From positions 1-54,527 of the forward strand of contig CAMCXS010000039.1 of the NCBI GenBank assembly GCA_945883495.1: 54,527 nucleotides of DNA. The letters run 5' to 3'. This DNA comes from Akkermansia muciniphila (GTDB lineage Bacteria > Verrucomicrobiota > Verrucomicrobiia > Verrucomicrobiales > DEV007). Shown here piece after piece: positions 9,202 through 20,312 of this stretch (position 1 is the stretch's first letter; each line of letters starts with the position of its first letter). Below the pieces are notes generated by a model. That model made no database searches and was not told the origin of the DNA. It saw nothing but the letters and a program-made list of their open reading frames with translations. Made by a program: the position numbers and the translations under genes.

Positions 9202-10842
9202 CTACCCCCAAAGCGCGATTGCGGCTCCTGCGGCGAGAAGTCCGAGAGCGGCCCAGTCTCGGCTCTCGAATCGATGTTGAGATGCCCCAGTGCGCAGAAA
9301 GCGGAGCAAGGCCCCGGTCGGACAACCGAACTTGCAGTAGGCTAGCGGATGGAAGACGGAGGCGATGAGCCCAACGAGGGCAATCGTGACGCTGGCCATC
9401 CCCGAGGCGCGGAAGATCCAGGCATCAAACGGTTCAAACGCCGCGAGATTGATTCTCGCCCCGGCAGTCACGGCCAGCAGCAAGGCGCTAAGCAGGAGAA
9501 AGGGGATCTTGGTCATCCATTGATTGAGTGTTGCCGGTAGAACGAATTTCTTATTGGTAAGCCTTCCGAGCCATTGTTGGGCGGCGCCATGCGGGCAGAG
9601 ATGGTGACAGTAGATCTGTTTACCAGTAAACAGGGGAACCAGCAGGGCAGCGAGGGTCAAAACGGCAAGGCCGGGAAGGCTCCGCCAGGCAATTCCATGC
9701 GTCGCCCAACCAGCCAGGAGAGCTTGGGAAACCAGATCGCCAGCGATCAAGCCGACGTAGCCGATGAGAATGCCATTCCAGATCCAGCGAACCCAGCGGT
9801 TGCCTCGCCACGAACTGAAGGTCAGAACGCCGGCCAAGCAGACGATGGCGATGAGCAAGCCGTCCCGCAGTTCAAAACGGAAGCGGGAGGCGTTTCCTAT
9901 GGATGACTCGTTGAGCCGCCGCTGAACGCCTTCGACAACAGCCAAGCTGGTGCGAGTCGCCCCGGAAACGCCGGAAACGCCTTCACGCTGGAGGTCGAAG
10001 TTTCGCATCGATTCGACGCTCCGGCCGGAAAAGCCCGGGAGAAACCGGGAGTCCTTGGTCGCCACGGAGAGGTATTCCTCCGTTTCATACGAATCGCGGA
10101 CCCGGATCTCGCGGATGACCTTTCCGGTGGGATCGAGGACGACGATCGTATCGGTTGGGCCTTTGTAGCCAGTCACTGGATCGCTCGCCGGTGAGGTTCG
10201 CAAGACGCGTCCCAGGACAGCGTCGCGGGCATTAAGGACCACGACGCCGCCCAATGCCGCCGGATCGTGTTCCAGCTTGGTAGCGGTTGGGAAGAGAGGT
10301 TGAAGCTCCCTGAGCTCCAGTGGATACGGGAAGAGAAGCGACGCCCGTTCCGCGCTGCCGAGAGCGCGCAAGATGCCACGGGTGATCGCAGAACTTGTGA
10401 GTGTGGCGCCGCTGACATTGCGGATGAGACCTGCGTCGGGAAGGGTGCGAACTTGGTCCCAATACTCCGCGTCCTCCAGAACGCGCCGAACATGATCCGC
10501 CGTATCTCCGCTCGAGAGAAGCTTGGCGCCTTTCACCTTTCGGTTGCGGTCAAGGGCAATCAGCGTATTGCTCGGACCGGAATACCCGATGATGTCGTTG
10601 GCGCGGGGCAGAGTCTGCATAAGGACGCCAGTCAAATCCCCGAATCCGTCGGTGACATACTGGGCGCCCGTTTCGCCATCGGGGGCGCTGATTTTGGCGG
10701 CTCCCGGGAACCATTGCTTGGCCTGCTCCTTGACTAGGGGAACGGGGCGGTCAATCGAGCGGCATTGCGAACGAATCAGGGCCATCGCCGCGATCAAGAC
10801 GGAGAGGCGCCAGAGCCGCAGCAACCAGACGCGGTGCTTCAC
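9202..10842 (-). CDS. NosR/NapH-like membrane protein with two FMN-binding domains and CxxxCP clusters
   Basis: After an N-terminal membrane anchor (VWLLRLWRLSVLIAAMALI) there are two FMN-binding (NqrC/NosR-type) domains. Each ends in an ApbE modification motif: RNVSGATLTSS with target Thr147, and SGVSGATRTSL with target Thr297. The C-terminal 200 residues hold about five membrane helices and two Fe-S or heme-linked CxxxCP motifs, CHHLCP (412/416) and CKFGCP (503/507), as in NapH and NosR. It probably moves electrons through the membrane between the quinone pool and periplasmic flavins. I chose the GTG at 10842, giving a GTGA overlap with the upstream oxidoreductase. The reading-frame extension beyond it lies inside that gene. 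Confidence 0.88.
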   Translation of the reverse strand: MKHRVWLLRLWRLSVLIAAMALIRSQCRSIDRPVPLVKEQAKQWFPGAAKISAPDGETGAQYVTDGFGDLTGVLMQTLPRANDIIGYSGPSNTLIALDRNRKVKGAKLLSSGDTADHVRRVLEDAEYWDQVRTLPDAGLIRNVSGATLTSSAITRGILRALGSAERASLLFPYPLELRELQPLFPTATKLEHDPAALGGVVVLNARDAVLGRVLRTSPASDPVTGYKGPTDTIVVLDPTGKVIREIRVRDSYETEEYLSVATKDSRFLPGFSGRSVESMRNFDLQREGVSGVSGATRTSLAVVEGVQRRLNESSIGNASRFRFELRDGLLIAIVCLAGVLTFSSWRGNRWVRWIWNGILIGYVGLIAGDLVSQALLAGWATHGIAWRSLPGLAVLTLAALLVPLFTGKQIYCHHLCPHGAAQQWLGRLTNKKFVLPATLNQWMTKIPFLLLSALLLAVTAGARINLAAFEPFDAWIFRASGMASVTIALVGLIASVFHPLAYCKFGCPTGALLRFLRTGASQHRFESRDWAALGLLAAGAAIALWG

Positions 10843-13130
10843 GGCATCCGCACGACTTGAACGGCGTCGGCATGTACCGTGCCATCCACGCCCTGGTTGG
10901 TGAGGGTCACGGAATAGGCTTGTCCCGGCGCAAAGGACCAAGTGCCGAGCACTCGATACCCCTTCTCCCCGGGAGCTTGCTGCTGGTTGACCGTGAGCAT
11001 GGTATCGCCGTCGGAGGTGCGGATCGTGACCGGCGCGTTGGAGGCGCGGTTGTCGTGAGCCTGCCAGTAGAGGCGGACTTCGTGGCTCCCGGCTTCCTTG
11101 ACGAAGAATTCAAAACGCGCCGCGCCCTCCCCGGCTTGGGGATGGTAAATGTAATGGTCCCCCACGTAATCGGAGAGGCCTTCGCCGGACTTCCAGGAGC
11201 CAATGAGCTTGGCCTCGGTGTCGTCGATCACGATGCCTTCCAGCTCTGCAGGGTCAATGAATTCAATGCCGGTTGGCAGGAATTTGGGGCCGCCCGGTGG
11301 GACGTAAATATCCGTGGTCAAAGCATCACGACGAGCCCAACCAGGCTGCCTGCAAAGCTCCTTGAGGAGATCAAGGTGGTTCTCGTAAACCCCGCGCGGC
11401 GACGTCTCGTGACGGAGAACGATCCAAGCGGCTTTGCCGATAACCTCGCCCATCATTCCGCAAGTTCGCATGACCCGGGTGGTACCGAGGGCAAGGCGAT
11501 CGACGCTGATGTTGCGCCCGGCCATGAAGAGATTCTCGATGTCACGGGAATAGAGGGTGCGGTAGGGGACCAAGTAACCCTCCTTCTTCTCGCCCTCGAA
11601 ATGACCGAACTCGGCGCGGGAGATAAAAGGATTGTCCTTGTAGCTCTTCATGTATTCCTCTTTGGGGTAATGGAGGTCCAAGCCCCAAGTAGTGGCGACT
11701 AGACCGTCGTCAAATTTGCGGCCGTTCTTGATATCGTCTCCGGTCAACACTAGGTCGCCAGTGAGGAGGCGGGACTCGCGGTTTCCGCCGATGCAGGCGA
11801 CCCAAGCCATGGACTGAGTCGCGTATTTCTCTGGAAGATTTCGCTTTAGTGAGGCAAAGGCCCCATAGACAGCACGGAGGTTCCAATCACGGATGAGTTC
11901 GAGGTCGTTGAGCGGGTGCTTGTCGAAGCCGCTTTCCCAGAACCACTCACCCTTGAGATAACTCCGGTCCCCCCAGGTGGCGGGACGCGGTTCGGGGAAC
12001 TCATCCAAGGTGAGTTCCAAAGCCCACGGCGTATCTGGCCAGGGGGCCGGCCTCCCGGTGTCCTCGGAGTACCACATGTTGCTCATGCCGAGGTGGCCCT
12101 TCTCCGCCATGGTGAACGGTGCACCTGCGAGGGCTCCGATCGTGCCGTGGCCGGTGCAATCCGCGAACAGCTTGCCGGGAAAGCGCTTCTCCTGGCCGGA
12201 GCGGGTATCGAGAGCGTGGACCGCGATGATGCGCTTGCCTTGCATCTCCACCTTGGTGCCGTGATGGTTCAGGAAGAGGGCCAAGTTCTTCTCCGCGCGG
12301 ACGATCTCTTCCTTGAGGTTGTCTCCGTACTCTTCCTCGGAGCCGGGGCTGTTCTTGGCGTGATCGGTGAATTCCTCCACGATTTCACCGAGGCGAGGGT
12401 ATTCATTGACCCGGGTTTTGCCTTGGGCCCAGACACGAACTTCACTGCTGCCGTTCCCGCCAAGGACGGGACGGTTCTGGATCAAGGCGACGCGGAGTCC
12501 TTGCCGAGCACCGGAAATAGCGGCCGCAGTTCCGGCGTAGCCTCCGCCGGTGACGACGAGATCAAACTCACCGGCATCGGGCGGCGTGGCCGGAAGCCCA
12601 AGGGCTGCCCTCCGGAATGCGAGCAATTCTTCTCCCGAGGCTGGAGGAGCCGGGGTGCCAGGCTTGCTGAAAACTATGGCGTCGCAACGGCCGGCGAAAC
12701 CAGTCAAATCGTGAAGACGGAGCTCAGTTTCCGGCGAGGTGACTTCAATGGTGCCGCCGTCCTGCCAATGCCAATCCGCCCCCGTGGTGCCAAACTCCGC
12801 GGCCACCGGTTTGCCCGCGACTACGAGCTGAAAGCGGCCCGGGGTGCCCGGCGCGGACCAGGGGCCCACCCAATCTTTGGTGCGGACGTGCACCTGCCAA
12901 GTGCCGGTGGAGGGGAAGGTCACTTGGGCGACCGCATCCTCGACTGGGCGGCCCATTCCGTGCGCCAGGAGATACGGCGATCCCATGATCTCAATAAATT
13001 GGGTGTCTAACGTCCAGCCTCCGGGAGTGGAGAAGGATTCAGCCTCGATGAAAACTTGAGCAGCGGAGAGGGAAGTGCCGGAACCGGCGCAGAACGCGAC
13101 GGCCAGGAAGGCTTGGAACAACGGACGCAT
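10839..13130 (-). CDS. Secreted FAD-dependent oxidoreductase (xanthan-lyase-like annotation family)
   Basis: A Sec signal peptide (MRPLFQAFLAVAFCAGSGTS...SAA) is followed by a beta-rich region (about 26-155) resembling a carbohydrate-binding or golvesin-like sandwich. Next comes an FAD-binding oxidoreductase core starting at DLVVTGGGYAGTAAAISGAR (about 190-209), with VLGGNGSSEVRVWAQG and FMAGRNISVDRLALGT. A second golvesin-like beta domain (about 635-760) follows. Homologues are often misnamed xanthan lyase and their substrate is unknown. It heads an operon with the flavinylated membrane protein (GTGA overlap) and apbE. The context argues that its FAD exchanges electrons with the covalent FMN of that protein at the outer face of the membrane. 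Confidence 0.85.
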   Translation of the reverse strand: MRPLFQAFLAVAFCAGSGTSLSAAQVFIEAESFSTPGGWTLDTQFIEIMGSPYLLAHGMGRPVEDAVAQVTFPSTGTWQVHVRTKDWVGPWSAPGTPGRFQLVVAGKPVAAEFGTTGADWHWQDGGTIEVTSPETELRLHDLTGFAGRCDAIVFSKPGTPAPPASGEELLAFRRAALGLPATPPDAGEFDLVVTGGGYAGTAAAISGARQGLRVALIQNRPVLGGNGSSEVRVWAQGKTRVNEYPRLGEIVEEFTDHAKNSPGSEEEYGDNLKEEIVRAEKNLALFLNHHGTKVEMQGKRIIAVHALDTRSGQEKRFPGKLFADCTGHGTIGALAGAPFTMAEKGHLGMSNMWYSEDTGRPAPWPDTPWALELTLDEFPEPRPATWGDRSYLKGEWFWESGFDKHPLNDLELIRDWNLRAVYGAFASLKRNLPEKYATQSMAWVACIGGNRESRLLTGDLVLTGDDIKNGRKFDDGLVATTWGLDLHYPKEEYMKSYKDNPFISRAEFGHFEGEKKEGYLVPYRTLYSRDIENLFMAGRNISVDRLALGTTRVMRTCGMMGEVIGKAAWIVLRHETSPRGVYENHLDLLKELCRQPGWARRDALTTDIYVPPGGPKFLPTGIEFIDPAELEGIVIDDTEAKLIGSWKSGEGLSDYVGDHYIYHPQAGEGAARFEFFVKEAGSHEVRLYWQAHDNRASNAPVTIRTSDGDTMLTVNQQQAPGEKGYRVLGTWSFAPGQAYSVTLTNQGVDGTVHADAVQVVRMP

Positions 13131-13249: not shown

Positions 13250-14581
13250 ATGTTCTCGCAGCTCAGCAATCAGCTCGAAGGCGCCTTCAAGAAACTTCGT
13301 GGTCACGGCAAGATCTCGGAGTCCAATGTGACCGAGGCCATGCGCGAGGTCCGCATGGCGTTGCTTGAGGCGGATGTCGACTTCAAGGTCGCCAAAGACT
13401 TCATCGGCGCCGTGAAAGAGAAGTCGCTGGGCACGGAGGTGCTACTCAGCGTCACGCCGGGACAACAAATCGTGAAGATCTTTCACGACGAACTCACGCG
13501 GGTCCTAGGAGGCGACTCGGCCCCCCTGGATTTGAACCCGCCGGGCCGGATTCTCATGGTGGGGTTGAACGGGGCGGGGAAAACGACCACATCTGCCAAG
13601 CTGGCGCTCCACTTAAAGAAAGAGGGGCGTCGCCCGGTTTTGGTGGCCTGCGACTTGATCCGTCCGGCGGCGATTGAACAGTTGGTGACGCTCGCCAAGC
13701 AGATCGATGTCCCGGTCTACGCGCCCTCCAAGGACGAGAAGGATGTCCTCAAAGTGGCCGAGGCCGGCCTGAAGTTTGCCTCCGAGCAACAGGCCACCGT
13801 CACCATTTTCGATACAGCTGGACGCCAGGATCTCGATCAAGGACTGATTGAGGAACTCAAGAAGCTCAACAAGCTGCTGGACCCGAAGGAGGTGCTTCTG
13901 GTGGCCGACTCCGCCACTGGCCAGCAAGCGGTTAACGTCGCTAAAACCTTCCAAGACGCGGTCGGTTTGACCGGAATCGTCCTCACTCGGGTGGATGGTG
14001 ATGCCCGGGGCGGGGCCGCTCTTTCGATGCGGACCGTCACTGGACTCCCCATCAAGTTTATAGGGGAAGGGGAAAAGCTGAATCAACTCAGCGTCTTTCA
14101 TCCCCAGCGGATGGCGGGCCGAATTCTCGGCATGGGCGACGTCGTCAGCCTGGTGGAAGCGGCCGCCGAGAACATCGATCAGGACGAAGCCATGCGGATG
14201 GCAGAGCGTCTGAAACGCGCGGAGTTCGATCTAAATGACCTCTTGGCGCAGATGAAGATGATGCGCAGTCTCGGCCCGCTAGAAAATTTGCTTGGCATGC
14301 TGCCGGGTATGAGTAAACTTGGCCCCCTTTCGGTTGATGAGAAGCAGATCCGTCGCACTGAGGCGATTGTGCTTTCGATGACACCGAGGGAGCGTTCCCG
14401 GCCGGAGATCATCAATGGAAGCCGCCGGAAGCGTATCGCCAAAGGGAGCGGTACTAGCGTCCCGGCGGTGAACCAGTTACTCCGGCAATTCTCTGACATG
14501 CGGAAGCTGATGCGAAGCAAGGGGAAGATGCGGAAGATGATGAAGCAGATGGGTGGAGGCGGAACGAAGTTCGGCTTCTGA
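13250..14581 (+). CDS. ffh: Signal recognition particle protein Ffh (SRP54)
   Basis: Ffh binds SRP RNA and signal sequences and delivers ribosomes to FtsY at the membrane. The N domain occupies about 1-85. The GTPase G domain has the P-loop GLNGAGKTTTSAKLA, DTAGRQDLDQGL and TRVDGDARGGAALS. The Met-rich M domain spans about 300-443 with GSGTSVPAVNQLLRQF and the MRKMMKQMGGG tail. I chose ATG 13250 (MFSQLSNQLEGAF), the conserved N-terminus, over a GTG 27 bases upstream. It is followed closely by rpsP and khpA, a widely conserved order. Confidence 0.98.
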   Translation: MFSQLSNQLEGAFKKLRGHGKISESNVTEAMREVRMALLEADVDFKVAKDFIGAVKEKSLGTEVLLSVTPGQQIVKIFHDELTRVLGGDSAPLDLNPPGRILMVGLNGAGKTTTSAKLALHLKKEGRRPVLVACDLIRPAAIEQLVTLAKQIDVPVYAPSKDEKDVLKVAEAGLKFASEQQATVTIFDTAGRQDLDQGLIEELKKLNKLLDPKEVLLVADSATGQQAVNVAKTFQDAVGLTGIVLTRVDGDARGGAALSMRTVTGLPIKFIGEGEKLNQLSVFHPQRMAGRILGMGDVVSLVEAAAENIDQDEAMRMAERLKRAEFDLNDLLAQMKMMRSLGPLENLLGMLPGMSKLGPLSVDEKQIRRTEAIVLSMTPRERSRPEIINGSRRKRIAKGSGTSVPAVNQLLRQFSDMRKLMRSKGKMRKMMKQMGGGGTKFGF

Positions 14582-14623
14582 CGTTTAGGGAAAACTTTTA
14601 AGAGACTGAGAAGAGGACAGATT

Positions 14624-14896
14624 ATGGCAGTAGCAATTCGACTTCGTCGCGAGGGAACCAAGAACCGGCCTTTCTACCGGATCGTTGTCGCGGATCAGCG
14701 TCACCGTCGCGACGGTCGCTTCATTGAGATGATTGGCACCTATGACCCGCTTCATGCGGAAGGTGAGACCAAGCTTGATCTAGCCAAAGCGGAAGCGTGG
14801 ATCGCCAAGGGCGCCCGTCCATCCGAAACCGTCGCCAGCATCATTAAGAAAGAACGCAGCAAGCCGAAGCCGGCGCCTGCGACGATCGACGCTTAA
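14624..14896 (+). CDS. rpsP: 30S ribosomal protein S16
   Basis: This small-subunit assembly protein has 90 residues, a normal length. It contains [27 protein letters not shown] in its first third, then [10 protein letters not shown] and [21 protein letters not shown], all conserved S16 signatures. GAGGAC 8-13 bases before the ATG is a fair ribosome binding site. It is co-oriented with ffh upstream and khpA downstream. Confidence 0.98.
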
Positions 14897-14926
14897 CTCG
14901 ACTTCCGGAATGATCCGGAGTAATTG

Positions 14927-14953
14927 GGAACGGCGCGGAGCGTCGTTCCTTTT
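14927..14953 (+). terminator. Rho-independent terminator between rpsP and khpA
   Basis: GGAACGGCGC (14927-14936), loop GGA and GCGTCGTTCC (14940-14949) form a 10-bp stem with one mismatch, followed by TTTT. It ends 18 bases before the khpA start, so it would separate khpA from the ffh-rpsP transcript or act as an attenuator. Confidence 0.6.
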
Positions 14954-14971
14954 GCTTGTACGCGAATCGCT

Positions 14972-15223
14972 ATGGACGCAGGTCTTGCTCTCAAGGAGTT
15001 TCTCGAATTTGTGGTGGGCAGTCTGGTACGCTATCCCGAATCCGCCAGTGTCGTGCATGAAATGCACGGAACCAAGCATGTGTATCGGTTGCGGCTGTCG
15101 TCGGAGGACATGGGCCGGATCATTGGGCGCAACGGATACACGATCAGCTCAATTCGCAGTTTGCTGGACGCGGCTGCGGAACGGCATCATCTCAAGGCTA
15201 CCCTTCGAATCGACGAGAGCTGA
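14972..15223 (+). CDS. khpA: KH-domain RNA-binding protein KhpA
   Basis: KhpA-type proteins are single KH-domain RNA chaperones that in some bacteria pair with KhpB. The 83 residues start MDAGLALKEFLEFVVGSLVR (typical of the family) and carry the KH core MGRIIGRNGYTISSIRSLL, where GRNG replaces the more usual GKRG. I chose ATG 14972 because the family begins at this helix; the 16 upstream residues overlap the terminator. Its position after ffh and rpsP is the standard genomic context. Confidence 0.93.
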   Translation: MDAGLALKEFLEFVVGSLVRYPESASVVHEMHGTKHVYRLRLSSEDMGRIIGRNGYTISSIRSLLDAAAERHHLKATLRIDES

Positions 15224-15324: not shown

Positions 15325-16725
15325 ATGCCTGCGCAGTATCTCAAACAGCTCGCTTTCTTCGCGCTCGGATCCTTCGTGCTCTCTTCCTGCTCGCTGACGG
15401 ACTTGCCGGACGATGACTTGATCCCTACGTCCGGGGCGATGTCCGCCACCGGGTCCAAAACCAAGTCAGCAGGGAGTTTGGCAGCAGAGGAATCGAAGCA
15501 CTCCAAGCTCCCGCTCCGTCCCCTGGAAAAGGGCGAAATGGGCGGTGATCTTGGGGTGACCGAGCCATTTCCTGATTACAATCGGGAACCGCTTCCGGCC
15601 TCCACCCGTATTTTTCTAGTGGCTGGAGGTGCTGGGGCAGCGACCTTCCTGCAGGAGATCGTGGTCCTGCGGGATTACTGGTTGAGCCAGGGCTATCGCG
15701 CGGATCAAATCGCGTGTTACTACGTGAAGCCAGAGAAGTCCGACTATGAGGCGGATCGGCGGAGATTTGATTCGATGGCAACGCGGACGCAGTCGTTCTA
15801 TTTGGCGGCGCCACACGTGCTGTTCCGGCACCTGAAGACCGTGGCATCTGCCAATCCGCGGGTGATGCATCTCTACGTGAACGGCTTGGGCAAAGCGCCG
15901 ATGAATGCCACGAGTGAAGAACGCGCTTTGGCGGCAGAGTTTCCCGAGTTCGCGGGTTGTCACCGGATCGTTCTGCGCGGAGGTCCCAGCGGCCACATGA
16001 ACGAGCGGATGCGTTTGGAAGCGCTGCGGGACGGAATCGATGCGCACTACTTGGTCTTCAACGCCCAGTTTTTGGCGGAGGCGCTCAATGAATTCCCGGC
16101 GTCTTGCGAGAAGTTCGTCGTATTGAACGCGGACCATTCGGGTGGTTTTCTGACGGGAAGTGCCGGGCAGGAGGGCTTGCTGCGCGGATTATCGAACATA
16201 ACCGTGCTGGCCTCCTCTGGCCATGACCGGAAGAATTCGGACGAGGGAGGGGAGTTAAGTCAGTTCGGGGGGCTCTTCCTTTCGGCTTTGTCGAGCGGAT
16301 CGGGCACTGTGGAAGCCCGTTCGTGGCGTAGCCTGGCAAACGAGGTGGTGGTTTCCGTGGATCGTAGCGAGGGGAATGCTGGAGTGCGGGCTCGTCTGCG
16401 GAGTCGGCCCGAGTTTTTCTCCAATGTTGCCCGGGAGTCCGGCGGATTGGCGGAGTTGGCGAGTGAGCTGGCGGTGTCCGAGGAAGAGCGTGCCCGGATC
16501 GTGCCGGTCAGTGGGTTGCCAGTGTCGGGGGGAACGAGCGAGGAAGCGTCCAGCAATCTGCCTCCGCCCAGAACGGAACCACGGCGCAAAGCAGGAGCCA
16601 ATGGCGCTCCAATCATTTCTGAATCAGTCAAAGTGGAGGAACCGAGGCCGACCGCGCCGCGGACGGTGAGTCCAACCCAGGGCACGGCGGGCTCGGGCTT
16701 TGGCCGCGGGCGGTTCAACCGTTGA
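15325..16725 (+). CDS. Lipoprotein with caspase/legumain-like fold, catalytic residues replaced
   Basis: The signal peptide ends in a lipobox (FVLSSC, lipidated Cys22). After a low-complexity linker, residues about 93-325 follow the secondary-structure plan of the caspase-hemoglobinase fold. These are strand TRIFLVAGGAGAA, helix, strand ending at CYYV, strand MHLYVNGLGKAP where active members have a [SA]GHG motif, and strand KFVVLNADHSGGF where active members have D-A-C-x-S-G-G. A further strand is ITVLASSGHDRKNSDEGG, then GGLFLSAL. Thus the catalytic His is Leu188 and the Cys is replaced in ADHSGG (268-275), so it is probably non-proteolytic. The C-terminal 100 residues are Pro/Ser-rich and disordered. 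The fold call is my inference from pattern. Confidence 0.6.
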   Translation: MPAQYLKQLAFFALGSFVLSSCSLTDLPDDDLIPTSGAMSATGSKTKSAGSLAAEESKHSKLPLRPLEKGEMGGDLGVTEPFPDYNREPLPASTRIFLVAGGAGAATFLQEIVVLRDYWLSQGYRADQIACYYVKPEKSDYEADRRRFDSMATRTQSFYLAAPHVLFRHLKTVASANPRVMHLYVNGLGKAPMNATSEERALAAEFPEFAGCHRIVLRGGPSGHMNERMRLEALRDGIDAHYLVFNAQFLAEALNEFPASCEKFVVLNADHSGGFLTGSAGQEGLLRGLSNITVLASSGHDRKNSDEGGELSQFGGLFLSALSSGSGTVEARSWRSLANEVVVSVDRSEGNAGVRARLRSRPEFFSNVARESGGLAELASELAVSEEERARIVPVSGLPVSGGTSEEASSNLPPPRTEPRRKAGANGAPIISESVKVEEPRPTAPRTVSPTQGTAGSGFGRGRFNR

Positions 16726-16776
16726 AACTGTTTGCAATGCCGGTGCGCCTGGGCAAGCTGGACGACTCTTCTTTCG

Positions 16777-17226
16777 ATGCGCGTTGTTTACGAAATCGCC
16801 GGGAAATACGAAAAGCCGGAGCCATGCGATGGCTTAGTGAATTCTCAGATTGACCCGGGCGTCACCTACCGGCGCAGCCGTCTTTACGACTTCACCTTTG
16901 AAGGCGATGCCGAGCGATTGGACGCGTTTGTGCGCCATTCTCTCTTCGATGAAATCGGCCAACAGCTGCGCCAAGATGCCCCGTTGATTGAAGGTCAGAA
17001 TTTAACTTTAGAAGTCGGGATGAAGCCCGGCGCGCTCGATCTGGAGAAAGAGGCGATCGTCGCGGTGTATCGCGGGCTTCCCGACGCCGGATTCGTGTTG
17101 TCGCGCTTCCGCCTGAGCCAACGGTTTTGCTTTTTTGGTCCGGTGACCGAGACGGTCGAACGCCGTTTGGTGCGCGATTTGGTGAACCCGGCCATTCATA
17201 CCCACACCCTCGTCCGGTCCGCATGA
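16777..17226 (+). CDS. purS: PurS-type subunit of FGAM synthase, two-domain form
   Basis: PurS bridges PurL and PurQ in the complex that converts FGAR to FGAM with glutamine and ATP. This protein has 149 residues, about twice the usual 80. The C-terminal half (LTLEVGMKPGALDLEKEA, VLSRFRLSQRFCFFG, RDLVNPAIHTH) is a PurS domain. The N-terminal half (MRVVYEIAGK, SRLYDFTFEG, AERLDAFVRHSLFDEIG) looks like a second, diverged copy. The layout resembles the N-terminal domain fused to PurL in enterobacteria. I used ATG 16777; the longer reading starts with TTG. Its stop overlaps the purL start (ATGA). Confidence 0.8.
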   Translation: MRVVYEIAGKYEKPEPCDGLVNSQIDPGVTYRRSRLYDFTFEGDAERLDAFVRHSLFDEIGQQLRQDAPLIEGQNLTLEVGMKPGALDLEKEAIVAVYRGLPDAGFVLSRFRLSQRFCFFGPVTETVERRLVRDLVNPAIHTHTLVRSA

Positions 17227-19586
17227 GTCAGAGCGCCAGTTTTCGACAGATTCCGATTCGGGAGCTTTCCGGCGGAGAGCTCCTTGCCCTGAGCAAGCAG
17301 ATGAAGCTCTCGCTCAGTGAGGAGGACATGCTGACCGTGCAGGGAATCTACAAGCAGTGGGATCGTGAACCGAGCGATGTAGAGCTGGAGGTCATCGCGC
17401 AAACCTGGTCCGAGCACTGCAAACACCGGATTTTCGGCGCCCAGATTGAGCACGAGCGGGACGGGGTGATGGAAACGGTGGACGGACTGTTCCGGACGTT
17501 CGTTCGCAAAGTCTCCGAGGCAATCTTCGCGGCGAAGCCGGGGTTCGTGCTCTCGGCGTTTCATGACAACGCGGGGTTCATCACGCTAGACGAGAATCTC
17601 GCGGTCTGTCTAAAGGCGGAAACGCACAATCACCCGTCCGCCATCGAGCCTTACGCCGGGGCGAACACCGGTTTGGGCGGCGTAATTCGGGATATCCTCG
17701 GCGCGGGACAGGGCGCCAAACCGATTGGCTCGCTCGACGTGTTCTGTTTTGGATATCCCGACACCGACCCGGCCGAGATCAAGGGCGATGACGTGATTCA
17801 TCCGCGTGGAATTCTCCGGGGCGTGGTCCGCGGGGTTCGCGATTACGGAAACCGGATGGGAATTCCGACCGTGGCGGGCGCGATTCAGTTTGACCCGGCG
17901 TATCTATACAATCCGCTGGTTTATTGCGGGACGGCTGGGGTGATTCCCCGTTGGGCCATCGACAAGAGGGTGCAGGCCGGACACTTGGTCGTGGCCGTGG
18001 GCGGCCGGACGGGACGGGATGGGTTGAAGGGGGCAACGTTTTCGAGTGCCGCGCTCGATGACACCAGCCACGTCGAGGATCAGCAGGCAGTGCAGATCGG
18101 CAACCCGATCGAGGAGAAAAAGGTCGCCGACTTTATCTTGGCGGCGCGTGATGCCCGGCTCATCGAGTTTGTGACCGACTGCGGCGCGGGCGGTTTTTCG
18201 TCAGCCGCCGGCGAGATGCTGAGCGAGTGCGGCGGCACGATTTACCTGGAACGAGCTCCGCTGAAAGAAGAGGGGCTCGTCAGCTGGGAAATCTTTATTT
18301 CGGAAAGTCAGGAGCGCATGGTTTTGGCTGTGCGGGAGGAGTCGCTTCCGGAGCTGCGCCGTTTGGCCGCGATGTTTGAGACCGAGCTTTGCGTCTTGGG
18401 TGAGGCGGATGGCAGCGGAGTGCTCAAGGTGACCCATCACGGCACCGAAGTCTGCCGACTCGACAACAGCGTGCTGCACGAAGCTCCGCGTCAGCATCGC
18501 CGCTCGCGTTGGACGACGCCCAACTTCGATCCCGAACCGGATCTGTCCGGCCTAGATATCGCCTCCACTCTAAAGGGGATGCTCGGCGACTTCGCAATTT
18601 GCAGCCGGGAGCCGATCATCCGGGAATACGATCACGAGGTGCAGGGCAATACCTTCCTCAAGCCGCTGGCCGGTGCGAAAGGGGACGCTCCCCAGGACGG
18701 CGCGGTGATCCGGATCGATGGCAGCGAGCAGCTTCTCGCCATTGGGCTTTCGATCCTGCCCGAATGGGGCAAAACCGATCCAGAAGGCATGGGCTTGGCC
18801 GTGGTCGACGAGTGTTTCCGGCAGTTGGTCAGCGTGGGATCGAACCCGGACCGGATCGCCCTGCTCGACAACTTCTGCATGGGGAACCCGAACGATGAAC
18901 GGGAACTCGGCGCTTTGGTGGAAACGTGCCGCGGCATGGCCACGGCGGCGACTGCGTACGCGGCTCCGTTTGTTTCCGGCAAAGATTCCTTCTACAACTA
19001 CTTTGAGGTGGACGGTCAATCGATCTCGATTCCCGTCACCTTGCTCTTAAGTGGCATGGGGATCGTGGAAGATGCGGCGCACGTGACCGGATCGACAATT
19101 CGCCGTCCGGATTCGGTGCTGGTTCTAATCGGTCATTCGAGCCGGGATCTGGGCGGAAGTGTGTTGGCTCGCCGCCTCGGACAGGGGAATTTGCGGGTGC
19201 CTCGCCCCGACTTGCAGCGCAATCTGGCACTTTACCGCGTTCTGTATCAGGCGATCCGCGATGGCCTAGTCCTGTCCGCCCACGATGTTTCCGAAGGCGG
19301 TCTGGCGGTCGCCGTTGCGGAGATGAGCTTTGGCGAGAAGGCGGATGTGAAGATCGACTCCCCGCTGGATGCGGTGGACTTGTTTAACGAGGCTCCGGGG
19401 CAGATCGTGTTGGAAGTGCCGACGGCGAAACAAGAAGAGGTGCTCACCCGATTCCACGATCTCCCGGTCCGGGTGATTGGCCGGACTCATTCTGGTTCGG
19501 GACGTCTCCGCATTGGTTCGGCCGTGGATGAGCCGATTTCCGTATTGAAAGCCATTTGGAAAGCGCCGTTGGGCGCTCATTATTGA
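17223..19586 (+). CDS. purL: Phosphoribosylformylglycinamidine synthase subunit PurL
   Basis: This ATP-dependent synthetase subunit of FGAM synthase acts in the fourth step of purine biosynthesis. The 787-residue product is the small, separate-subunit type. It shows the N-terminal segment around TWSEHCKHRIFGA, LKAETHNHPSAIEPYAGANTG, TDCGAGGFSSAAGEMLSECG, YAAPFVSGKDSFYNYF and LSAHDVSEGGLAVAVAEM. I chose ATG 17223 (MSQSASFRQIPIREL), which gives a 4-base ATGA overlap with purS. The reading frame upstream lies inside purS. purQ starts 3 bases after its stop. Confidence 0.98.
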   Translation: MSQSASFRQIPIRELSGGELLALSKQMKLSLSEEDMLTVQGIYKQWDREPSDVELEVIAQTWSEHCKHRIFGAQIEHERDGVMETVDGLFRTFVRKVSEAIFAAKPGFVLSAFHDNAGFITLDENLAVCLKAETHNHPSAIEPYAGANTGLGGVIRDILGAGQGAKPIGSLDVFCFGYPDTDPAEIKGDDVIHPRGILRGVVRGVRDYGNRMGIPTVAGAIQFDPAYLYNPLVYCGTAGVIPRWAIDKRVQAGHLVVAVGGRTGRDGLKGATFSSAALDDTSHVEDQQAVQIGNPIEEKKVADFILAARDARLIEFVTDCGAGGFSSAAGEMLSECGGTIYLERAPLKEEGLVSWEIFISESQERMVLAVREESLPELRRLAAMFETELCVLGEADGSGVLKVTHHGTEVCRLDNSVLHEAPRQHRRSRWTTPNFDPEPDLSGLDIASTLKGMLGDFAICSREPIIREYDHEVQGNTFLKPLAGAKGDAPQDGAVIRIDGSEQLLAIGLSILPEWGKTDPEGMGLAVVDECFRQLVSVGSNPDRIALLDNFCMGNPNDERELGALVETCRGMATAATAYAAPFVSGKDSFYNYFEVDGQSISIPVTLLLSGMGIVEDAAHVTGSTIRRPDSVLVLIGHSSRDLGGSVLARRLGQGNLRVPRPDLQRNLALYRVLYQAIRDGLVLSAHDVSEGGLAVAVAEMSFGEKADVKIDSPLDAVDLFNEAPGQIVLEVPTAKQEEVLTRFHDLPVRVIGRTHSGSGRLRIGSAVDEPISVLKAIWKAPLGAHY

Positions 19587-19589
19587 TTT

Positions 19590-20312
19590 ATGGCCCGGCC
19601 CAAAGCCCTACTTTTCAAATTCCCCGGCACGAACTGCGATGCCGAGACGGACCGCGCGATGCGGCTCGCGGGATTCGAGACGGATGTCCGGCCGATCGCG
19701 GTGGTGGATGCGGCGTCGTTGCGGGAGTATCAGCTGCTGGTCTTCTCCGGCGGGTTCAGCTATGGCGACTACGTGATGGCGGGCCGGCTGGCGCAATTGG
19801 AGATCGAGCGCCGGTTGGGGAGCGCGATTCGCGACTTTCACCATGCGGGCGGTCACCTCTTGGGGATCTGCAACGGCTTTCAAATTCTCTCGAAAATCGG
19901 GATTCTTCCTCCGGCCAGTTTGATCGAGAATGTTTCGGGGCGGTTCGTCTGCCGTTGGGTTCCGCTGCACCGGGTGGCCAAGGACAGTCCGTTCCTCTCG
20001 GCGTTACCCGACGACTTTGAACTCCCGGTGGCTCACGCCGAGGGGAGGCTGGTCACTCCGGCGCCGGAAGACGCGGAGACTTATCTGCACAATGGCTTGG
20101 CCGCGCTGACCTACGGCGAAAATTTCAACGGCAGCTCCGCCGCGATCGCCGGGTTGCAGGATCCCTCGGGACGCGCTTTCGGCTTGATGCCGCACCCGGA
20201 ACGCTTCATTGACCGCCGCCAGCACTACGATCGCGATTGGATCGCCGCAGAGCATGGTTGGGGCCACTATCTGTTTCAATCGATCTACGAACGCCTCGCG
20301 GCATCAGCATGA
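19590..20312 (+). CDS. purQ: FGAM synthase glutaminase subunit PurQ
   Basis: PurQ releases ammonia from glutamine for PurL. The class I amidotransferase nucleophile is Cys94 in HLLGICNGFQIL, with VFSGGFSYGDYV upstream and the catalytic His-Glu pair in GLMPHPERF near residue 208. Length (240 aa) is normal. It is tightly packed between purL (3-base gap) and purM (ATGA overlap), so all four pur genes here should be translated from one message. Confidence 0.97.
   Translation: MARPKALLFKFPGTNCDAETDRAMRLAGFETDVRPIAVVDAASLREYQLLVFSGGFSYGDYVMAGRLAQLEIERRLGSAIRDFHHAGGHLLGICNGFQILSKIGILPPASLIENVSGRFVCRWVPLHRVAKDSPFLSALPDDFELPVAHAEGRLVTPAPEDAETYLHNGLAALTYGENFNGSSAAIAGLQDPSGRAFGLMPHPERFIDRRQHYDRDWIAAEHGWGHYLFQSIYERLAASA

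Follow-up and report, generated by a model that had tools for sequence, protein, structure and literature searches.

In a stretch of 54,527 nucleotides from Akkermansia muciniphila, referred to here as the window, a gene for a putative lipoprotein lies between khpA and the genes of a purine cluster, and in a preliminary description its product had been likened to caspase-type peptidases with both catalytic residues replaced. This locus raises the question of what such a protein descends from, whether it is maintained in the absence of its catalytic residues, and how it came to stand at this address. The open reading frame had been located correctly (it starts with ATG, stops with TGA and encodes 466 aa; Table 1), and the motifs quoted for it, viz. 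LYVNGLGKA (residues 183–191), FVVLNADHSGGF (residues 264–275), VLASSGHDRK and GGLFLSAL, are all present in the translation. The protein also looks lipid-anchored, as had been suggested. Its predicted signal peptide, judged by eye, ends in LSS-C at residues 19–22, by which the lipobox rule marks it as a lipoprotein, and Cys22 and Ser23 are invariant in all five of the aligned members (three copies lacking the catalytic residues, termed here the dead copies, and two intact copies). These features suggest that the protein is exported and anchored by lipid in the envelope, where, by the rule known from E. coli, Ser at position +2 would favour the outer membrane.

Table 1. Features of the window considered in this work, with their positions (in nucleotides of the window) and the basis of each assignment.
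Feature	Position	Strand	Basis
ffh, rpsP, khpA; upstream neighbours, other side of presumed break	13250..15223	+	Pfam
Putative pseudo-C13 lipoprotein gene, 466 aa + stop	15325..16725	+	ORF; orthologues in the genus's other two genomes
Predicted signal peptide and lipobox LSSC, Cys22	15325..15390	+	Sequence; lipobox rule
Variable linker, residues 23–80	15391..15564	+	Residues 1–80 with 41–51% pairwise identity; pLDDT <50 over 19–80
Predicted caspase/legumain-fold core, residues 81–370	15565..16434	+	Predicted structure; BLASTP to intact paralogue over 81–367
Leu188, position of catalytic His (Gln in both orthologues)	15886..15888	+	Alignment
First insert, residues 199–212, without counterpart in intact paralogue	15919..15960	+	Alignment
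35-residue run, residues 213–247, identical across three orthologues	15961..16065	+	Alignment, column shuffles
Second insert, residues 222–233, within the invariant run; without counterpart in intact paralogue	15988..16023	+	Alignment
Asp270, position of catalytic Cys; Asp in 3/3 orthologues	16132..16134	+	Alignment
Variable C-terminal tail, residues 371–466, not in intact paralogue	16435..16722	+	Alignment; mostly pLDDT <50
purS-slot gene, purL, purQ; downstream half of split purine cluster	16774..20309	+	Pfam (purL, purQ), place

No Pfam family matched the window protein at E values up to 1, and in NCBIfam only two sub-threshold rows were obtained. One of these (RNA polymerase subunit K) was taken as chance, and the other was NF047832 (caspase, EACC1-associated type), for which the window protein scored 15.9 bits and its paralogue 31.3 bits, the cut-off of 140 being reached by neither. 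This paralogue was the only one found in a search of the protein's own genome (G000; 6.46 Mb, 206 contigs), where it is located on contig C1 and was matched in two pieces. It is a predicted lipoprotein of 313 aa (L002:1369-2310) in which SHG and GCHAGG, containing the catalytic His and Cys, are kept, and it passes the Pfam cut-off for Peptidase_C13 (PF01650; 32.6 bits, E 7.7e-8, cut-off 22.8). BLASTP aligned it with the window protein at 33% identity over 292 columns (E = 1e-45 in a single comparison), and overall the two kinds of copy are 33–35% identical. When PF01650 was searched against the own genome at E up to 10, the paralogue was matched and the window protein was not. The window protein shares descent with a protein that is above the C13 cut-off, and through this paralogue its sequence places it as kin of family C13 (legumain). 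Of the three genomes of the genus, G000 and G018 yielded the intact copy; its absence from G026 says little, since that genome is 81% complete and is also without a purC match.

The model predicted for the window protein has a mean pLDDT of 59, with values below 50 at residues 19–80, 219–229, 231–241 and 301–311, in most of the second insert and in most of the tail. Foldseek matched it to metacaspases, caspases and legumains with E values from 9.2e-5. As the top match in this comparison alone was a metacaspase, with a legumain in fourth place, the C13 label is founded on the paralogue and on structural realignment. Realignment of residues 93–372 with the legumain-type chain 6l4y_B gave a Z score of 18.5 (rmsd 3.2, 221 residues), and the first 39 of the best 50 realignment matches listed were legumains, asparaginyl endopeptidases or ligases, or GPI transamidase; metacaspases appeared from Z 16.8. 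The model of the intact paralogue has a mean pLDDT of 74, with legumains as its best Foldseek matches (E 3.9e-8) and a best realignment Z of 19.9, both models being built from the same five sequences, paralogues included, so that the window model is not independent of the intact paralogues. For the intact paralogue, sequence searches of PDB chains gave two weak rows, both metacaspase-9 (E 0.41 and 1); the window protein gave a single chance-level row and the alignment profile none, and only the fold comparison is clear. The core of the window protein is hence predicted to have a caspase/legumain fold, as had been proposed, and a model lacking this fold did not arise.

The replaced residues were read from the alignment with the two intact copies (G000, G018). 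In this alignment TTSHGVAP of the intact paralogue corresponds to VNGLGKAP of the window protein (His to Leu188), and LQGCHAGGF corresponds to LNADHSGGF (Cys to Asp270). The orthologues in G026 and G018 have Gln at the His position and Asp at the Cys position, so that neither the catalytic His nor the catalytic Cys of C13 is found in any of the three orthologues in total, one of which (G026) is cut at a contig end. The claim that both residues are replaced was thus borne out, whereas the reading of Cys as "Asp/His" is right for Asp and not for His, since the His following Asp270 is also a His in the intact copy. As to the conservation of the replaced positions, for which a check had been proposed, Asp is fixed in all three orthologues but the His position varies between Leu and Gln. 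An error in one assembly is an unlikely cause of these replacements, because they are also present in the orthologues from the two other genomes, and judging from the alignment the window protein is very probably a pseudoenzyme. It resembles family C13 (legumain, PF01650) in its predicted core fold and in having a same-genome paralogue that keeps His and Cys, but it differs from this family in lacking the catalytic pair and a Pfam match of its own, in its long tail and, relative to its C13 paralogue, in two inserts.

Homologues of the window protein were found, at E values up to 1e-3, in 3 of 74 genomes of the family, which are the three of the genus, and in none of the 71 others. With an E limit of 1e-5 and the first 4–5 candidates per genome scored, they were present in 3 of 288 genomes of the order and in 1 of 387 genomes of the phylum (its own); outside the genus, the 285 other order genomes and the 386 other phylum genomes, which are overlapping sets, gave no homologue. 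Scanned with the window protein, genome contigs gave only the two known orthologues, and viral contigs scanned with the intact paralogue gave no relative. Among plasmids, five Acinetobacter records had a match covering 40% of the intact paralogue; two of these matches are annotated as peptidase C13 family protein and three are without a listed gene. PF01650 was matched in 18 of 288 phylum genomes (21 loci), and the best of these loci outside the own genome aligned with the intact copy at an E value of 0.001 and 22% identity.

Of the neighbours that had been named for the gene, Pfam confirmed ffh and khpA and, downstream of it, purL, purQ and a purM-like gene of the AIRS family. Nothing in Pfam matched the occupant of the purS slot (16774-17223) at an E limit of 1e-3; it was named from its place and from its tblastn relatives (30–43% identity), which in 12 outgroup regions have purC on one side and purL on the other. 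Other genera have purC, the purS-slot gene, purL, purQ and the purM-like gene in a row. Contiguity of purC, purS and purL was seen in 12 of the 15 outgroup genomes read, which were chosen partly for having both genes on one contig, and the count to be used is instead 31 of 37. This is the share of other family genomes with both genes found (drawn from samples of 53 other genomes of the family, with a purL match in 44 and a purC match in 39) in which the gap between purC and purL is 487–1126 bp (median 564), which is too small for a 313-aa gene besides purS. In the remaining six, the two genes are about 35 kb apart on one contig (G010) or on different contigs (five genomes, in three of which one gene is less than 300 bases from the first base of its contig). 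On the contig concerned in G010 (C97), purC and purL are in opposite orientation, and there was no match to the C13 genes.

In both G000 and G018, one contig carries purC, the intact copy and a beta-propeller protein, and another carries khpA, the dead copy, purS, purL and purQ, the break in the purine cluster being internal to contigs in both genomes. In G026 the dead copy and khpA stand at the end of one contig, and purL is at the start of another. The listed GTG start of the intact paralogue overlaps the purC stop by 4 bases in the own genome. Because the intact copy follows purC and the dead copy precedes purS and purL, the two flank one former junction. The simplest history of the two genes would be that a C13 gene was inserted between purC and purS and was then duplicated, with a rearrangement breaking the cluster between the copies. 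A split purine cluster explains the neighbourhood of ffh, rpsP and khpA without a functional link, and in the regions read from other genera these three genes did not adjoin pur genes. A functional link to translation via ffh and khpA was rejected, as neither lipoprotein was matched (E 1e-3) in 18 ffh regions of other genera, one of which (L081) is cut inside ffh and does not cover the downstream side. The address is indeed unusual, as had been remarked, but it is best read as a by-product of the split cluster and does not point to a connection with translation or purine synthesis.

Two other genes of these neighbourhoods may be mentioned. The beta-propeller protein (PF09826; 1074 aa; L044:9872-13093, G000:C1) follows the intact copy, has a relative likewise placed in G018, and could be a partner or substrate. 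On the minus strand of the window, a gene for an FAD-dependent oxidoreductase with a Golvesin C-terminal domain (10839-13130; PF12831, PF25275) neighbours ffh, as it does in the other two genomes of the genus.

The three pseudo-orthologues have 63–71% amino-acid identity and a dN/dS of about 0.11–0.20, a rough value because synonymous sites are saturated (pS 0.66–0.71). No in-frame stop is present in any of the three genomes, the copy of G026 being cut at the contig end. Between G000 and G018 the window protein shows 63% identity, the lowest of nine genes compared (the intact copy shows 84%, purL 86%, ffh 87% and the purS slot 70%), and its gene evolves faster than the eight others. Residues 213–247 are identical in all three copies, and no run of 35 arose when the 290 core columns were shuffled 10,000 times; the best 47-column segment (residues 209–255, with 44 invariant columns) was reached in 10 of the 10,000 shuffles, which take columns as independent and hence show clustering but not its cause. 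At 79 core positions, one residue is common to the three dead copies and another is common to both intact copies. A supposed likeness of residues 213–247 to a motif of DUF4091 was discarded, since none of three fragments matched it and the only Pfam row they yielded was LPD15 at chance level (E 0.28).

Starting from the computed observations, i.e. the predicted fold, the loss of the dyad, the conservation, the intact paralogue and the split cluster, the explanation that we consider reasonably likely is that the window protein is a pseudoprotease, which arose by duplication of a C13 lipoprotein within one genus of a Verrucomicrobiota family, lost its dyad and was kept by selection. In this history one copy would have lost the His-Cys dyad and come to differ by a long tail and by two short inserts, both of which lie between the positions of the former dyad. 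It is doubtful that the two C13-like genes instead arrived separately, on either side of a broken purine cluster and without any duplication. Their low mutual identity and the failure to find an intermediate would accord with this, but the searches of the family, order and phylum revealed no homologue beyond the genus at the E limits given above, and the former purC-purS junction has one copy on each side. Very improbable is a decaying duplicate heading for loss under residual constraint only: although the gene has the lowest identity of the nine compared and both catalytic residues are gone, its frame is without a stop at 63–71% identity, its dN/dS is well under 1, and the run of 35 residues is without amino-acid change despite the saturation of synonymous sites.

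A different fate for the retained gene, that of a neofunctionalised enzyme in which Asp270 and the invariant His, Glu and Arg of residues 213–247 form a new active or metal-binding site, also appears unlikely to us. Asp is fixed at the former nucleophile while the His position varies, and the most conserved stretch is rich in polar residues, both of which would fit such a site; however, the low pLDDT of most of the second insert means that closeness of this stretch to Asp270 is not supported by the model, and the three fragments matched no Pfam family beyond the one chance-level row.

Because the protein is kept without its catalytic dyad, it most likely acts by binding without cutting, a reading that seems to us rather probable. 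We infer that it is most likely a binding or regulatory protein of the envelope, and the stretch of residues 213–247, between the former His and Cys positions, is most likely its best candidate binding site. Caspases dimerise through their last strand. Since an RS-P-F motif is common to dead and intact copies at the last predicted core strand, the intact copy may be a partner of the window protein, and it can be named, tentatively, as the first candidate. The window protein could then regulate the intact paralogue by pairing with it or by competing for substrate.

Proteins comparable in part are known. c-FLIP is a dead caspase-fold paralogue that regulates live caspase-8, and structure entry 3h11, among the realignment matches listed for the intact paralogue model, is presumably this complex. 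As in that system, a dead caspase-fold paralogue is kept here beside a live one, but the partnership shown there is only proposed here, and animal cytosol is replaced by bacterial envelope. The bacterial pseudoproteases MamO and CspC have folds that differ from the caspase/legumain fold. Both are described as pseudoproteases (MamO, PMC4794232; CspC, PMC6636752). Closer to the present case are the pseudo-orthocaspases, bacterial proteins of caspase-like fold in which, as reported by Klemencic et al. (2019; PMC6426788), Tyr and Ser take the place of the His-Cys dyad; these changes lie in the p20 domains of orthocaspases and were noted mostly in photosynthetic bacteria. The lineage of the window protein differs from these in having Leu or Gln and Asp at these positions, and in being a C13-derived lipoprotein of Verrucomicrobiota; a search of the text of that study gave no occurrence of Verrucomicrobia, C13, legumain or lipoprotein. 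Literature searches on peptidase C13 lipoproteins in bacteria or Verrucomicrobia gave, judging by the listings, no description of a pseudo-C13 lipoprotein, and broader ones gave no bacterial pseudo-C13 among the matches listed. Hence, while pseudoproteases of this fold are already known, the C13 lipoprotein lineage is apparently new and undescribed.

Regulation by pseudoproteases is known from animals and from some bacteria, and in our judgement it is uncommon that a dead copy, an intact copy and the likely site of duplication are all in view. The two copies are directly comparable, and the stretch that is most conserved after the loss of the dyad points to the site that a new function would have. 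By analogy, and as a possibility that we hold only tentatively, the window protein may be a young bacterial pseudolegumain that pairs with a live envelope paralogue or shields its substrates, a prokaryotic counterpart of c-FLIP and caspase-8. If true, this would be a pseudolegumain born at the break of a purine cluster, with its parent still in the genome.
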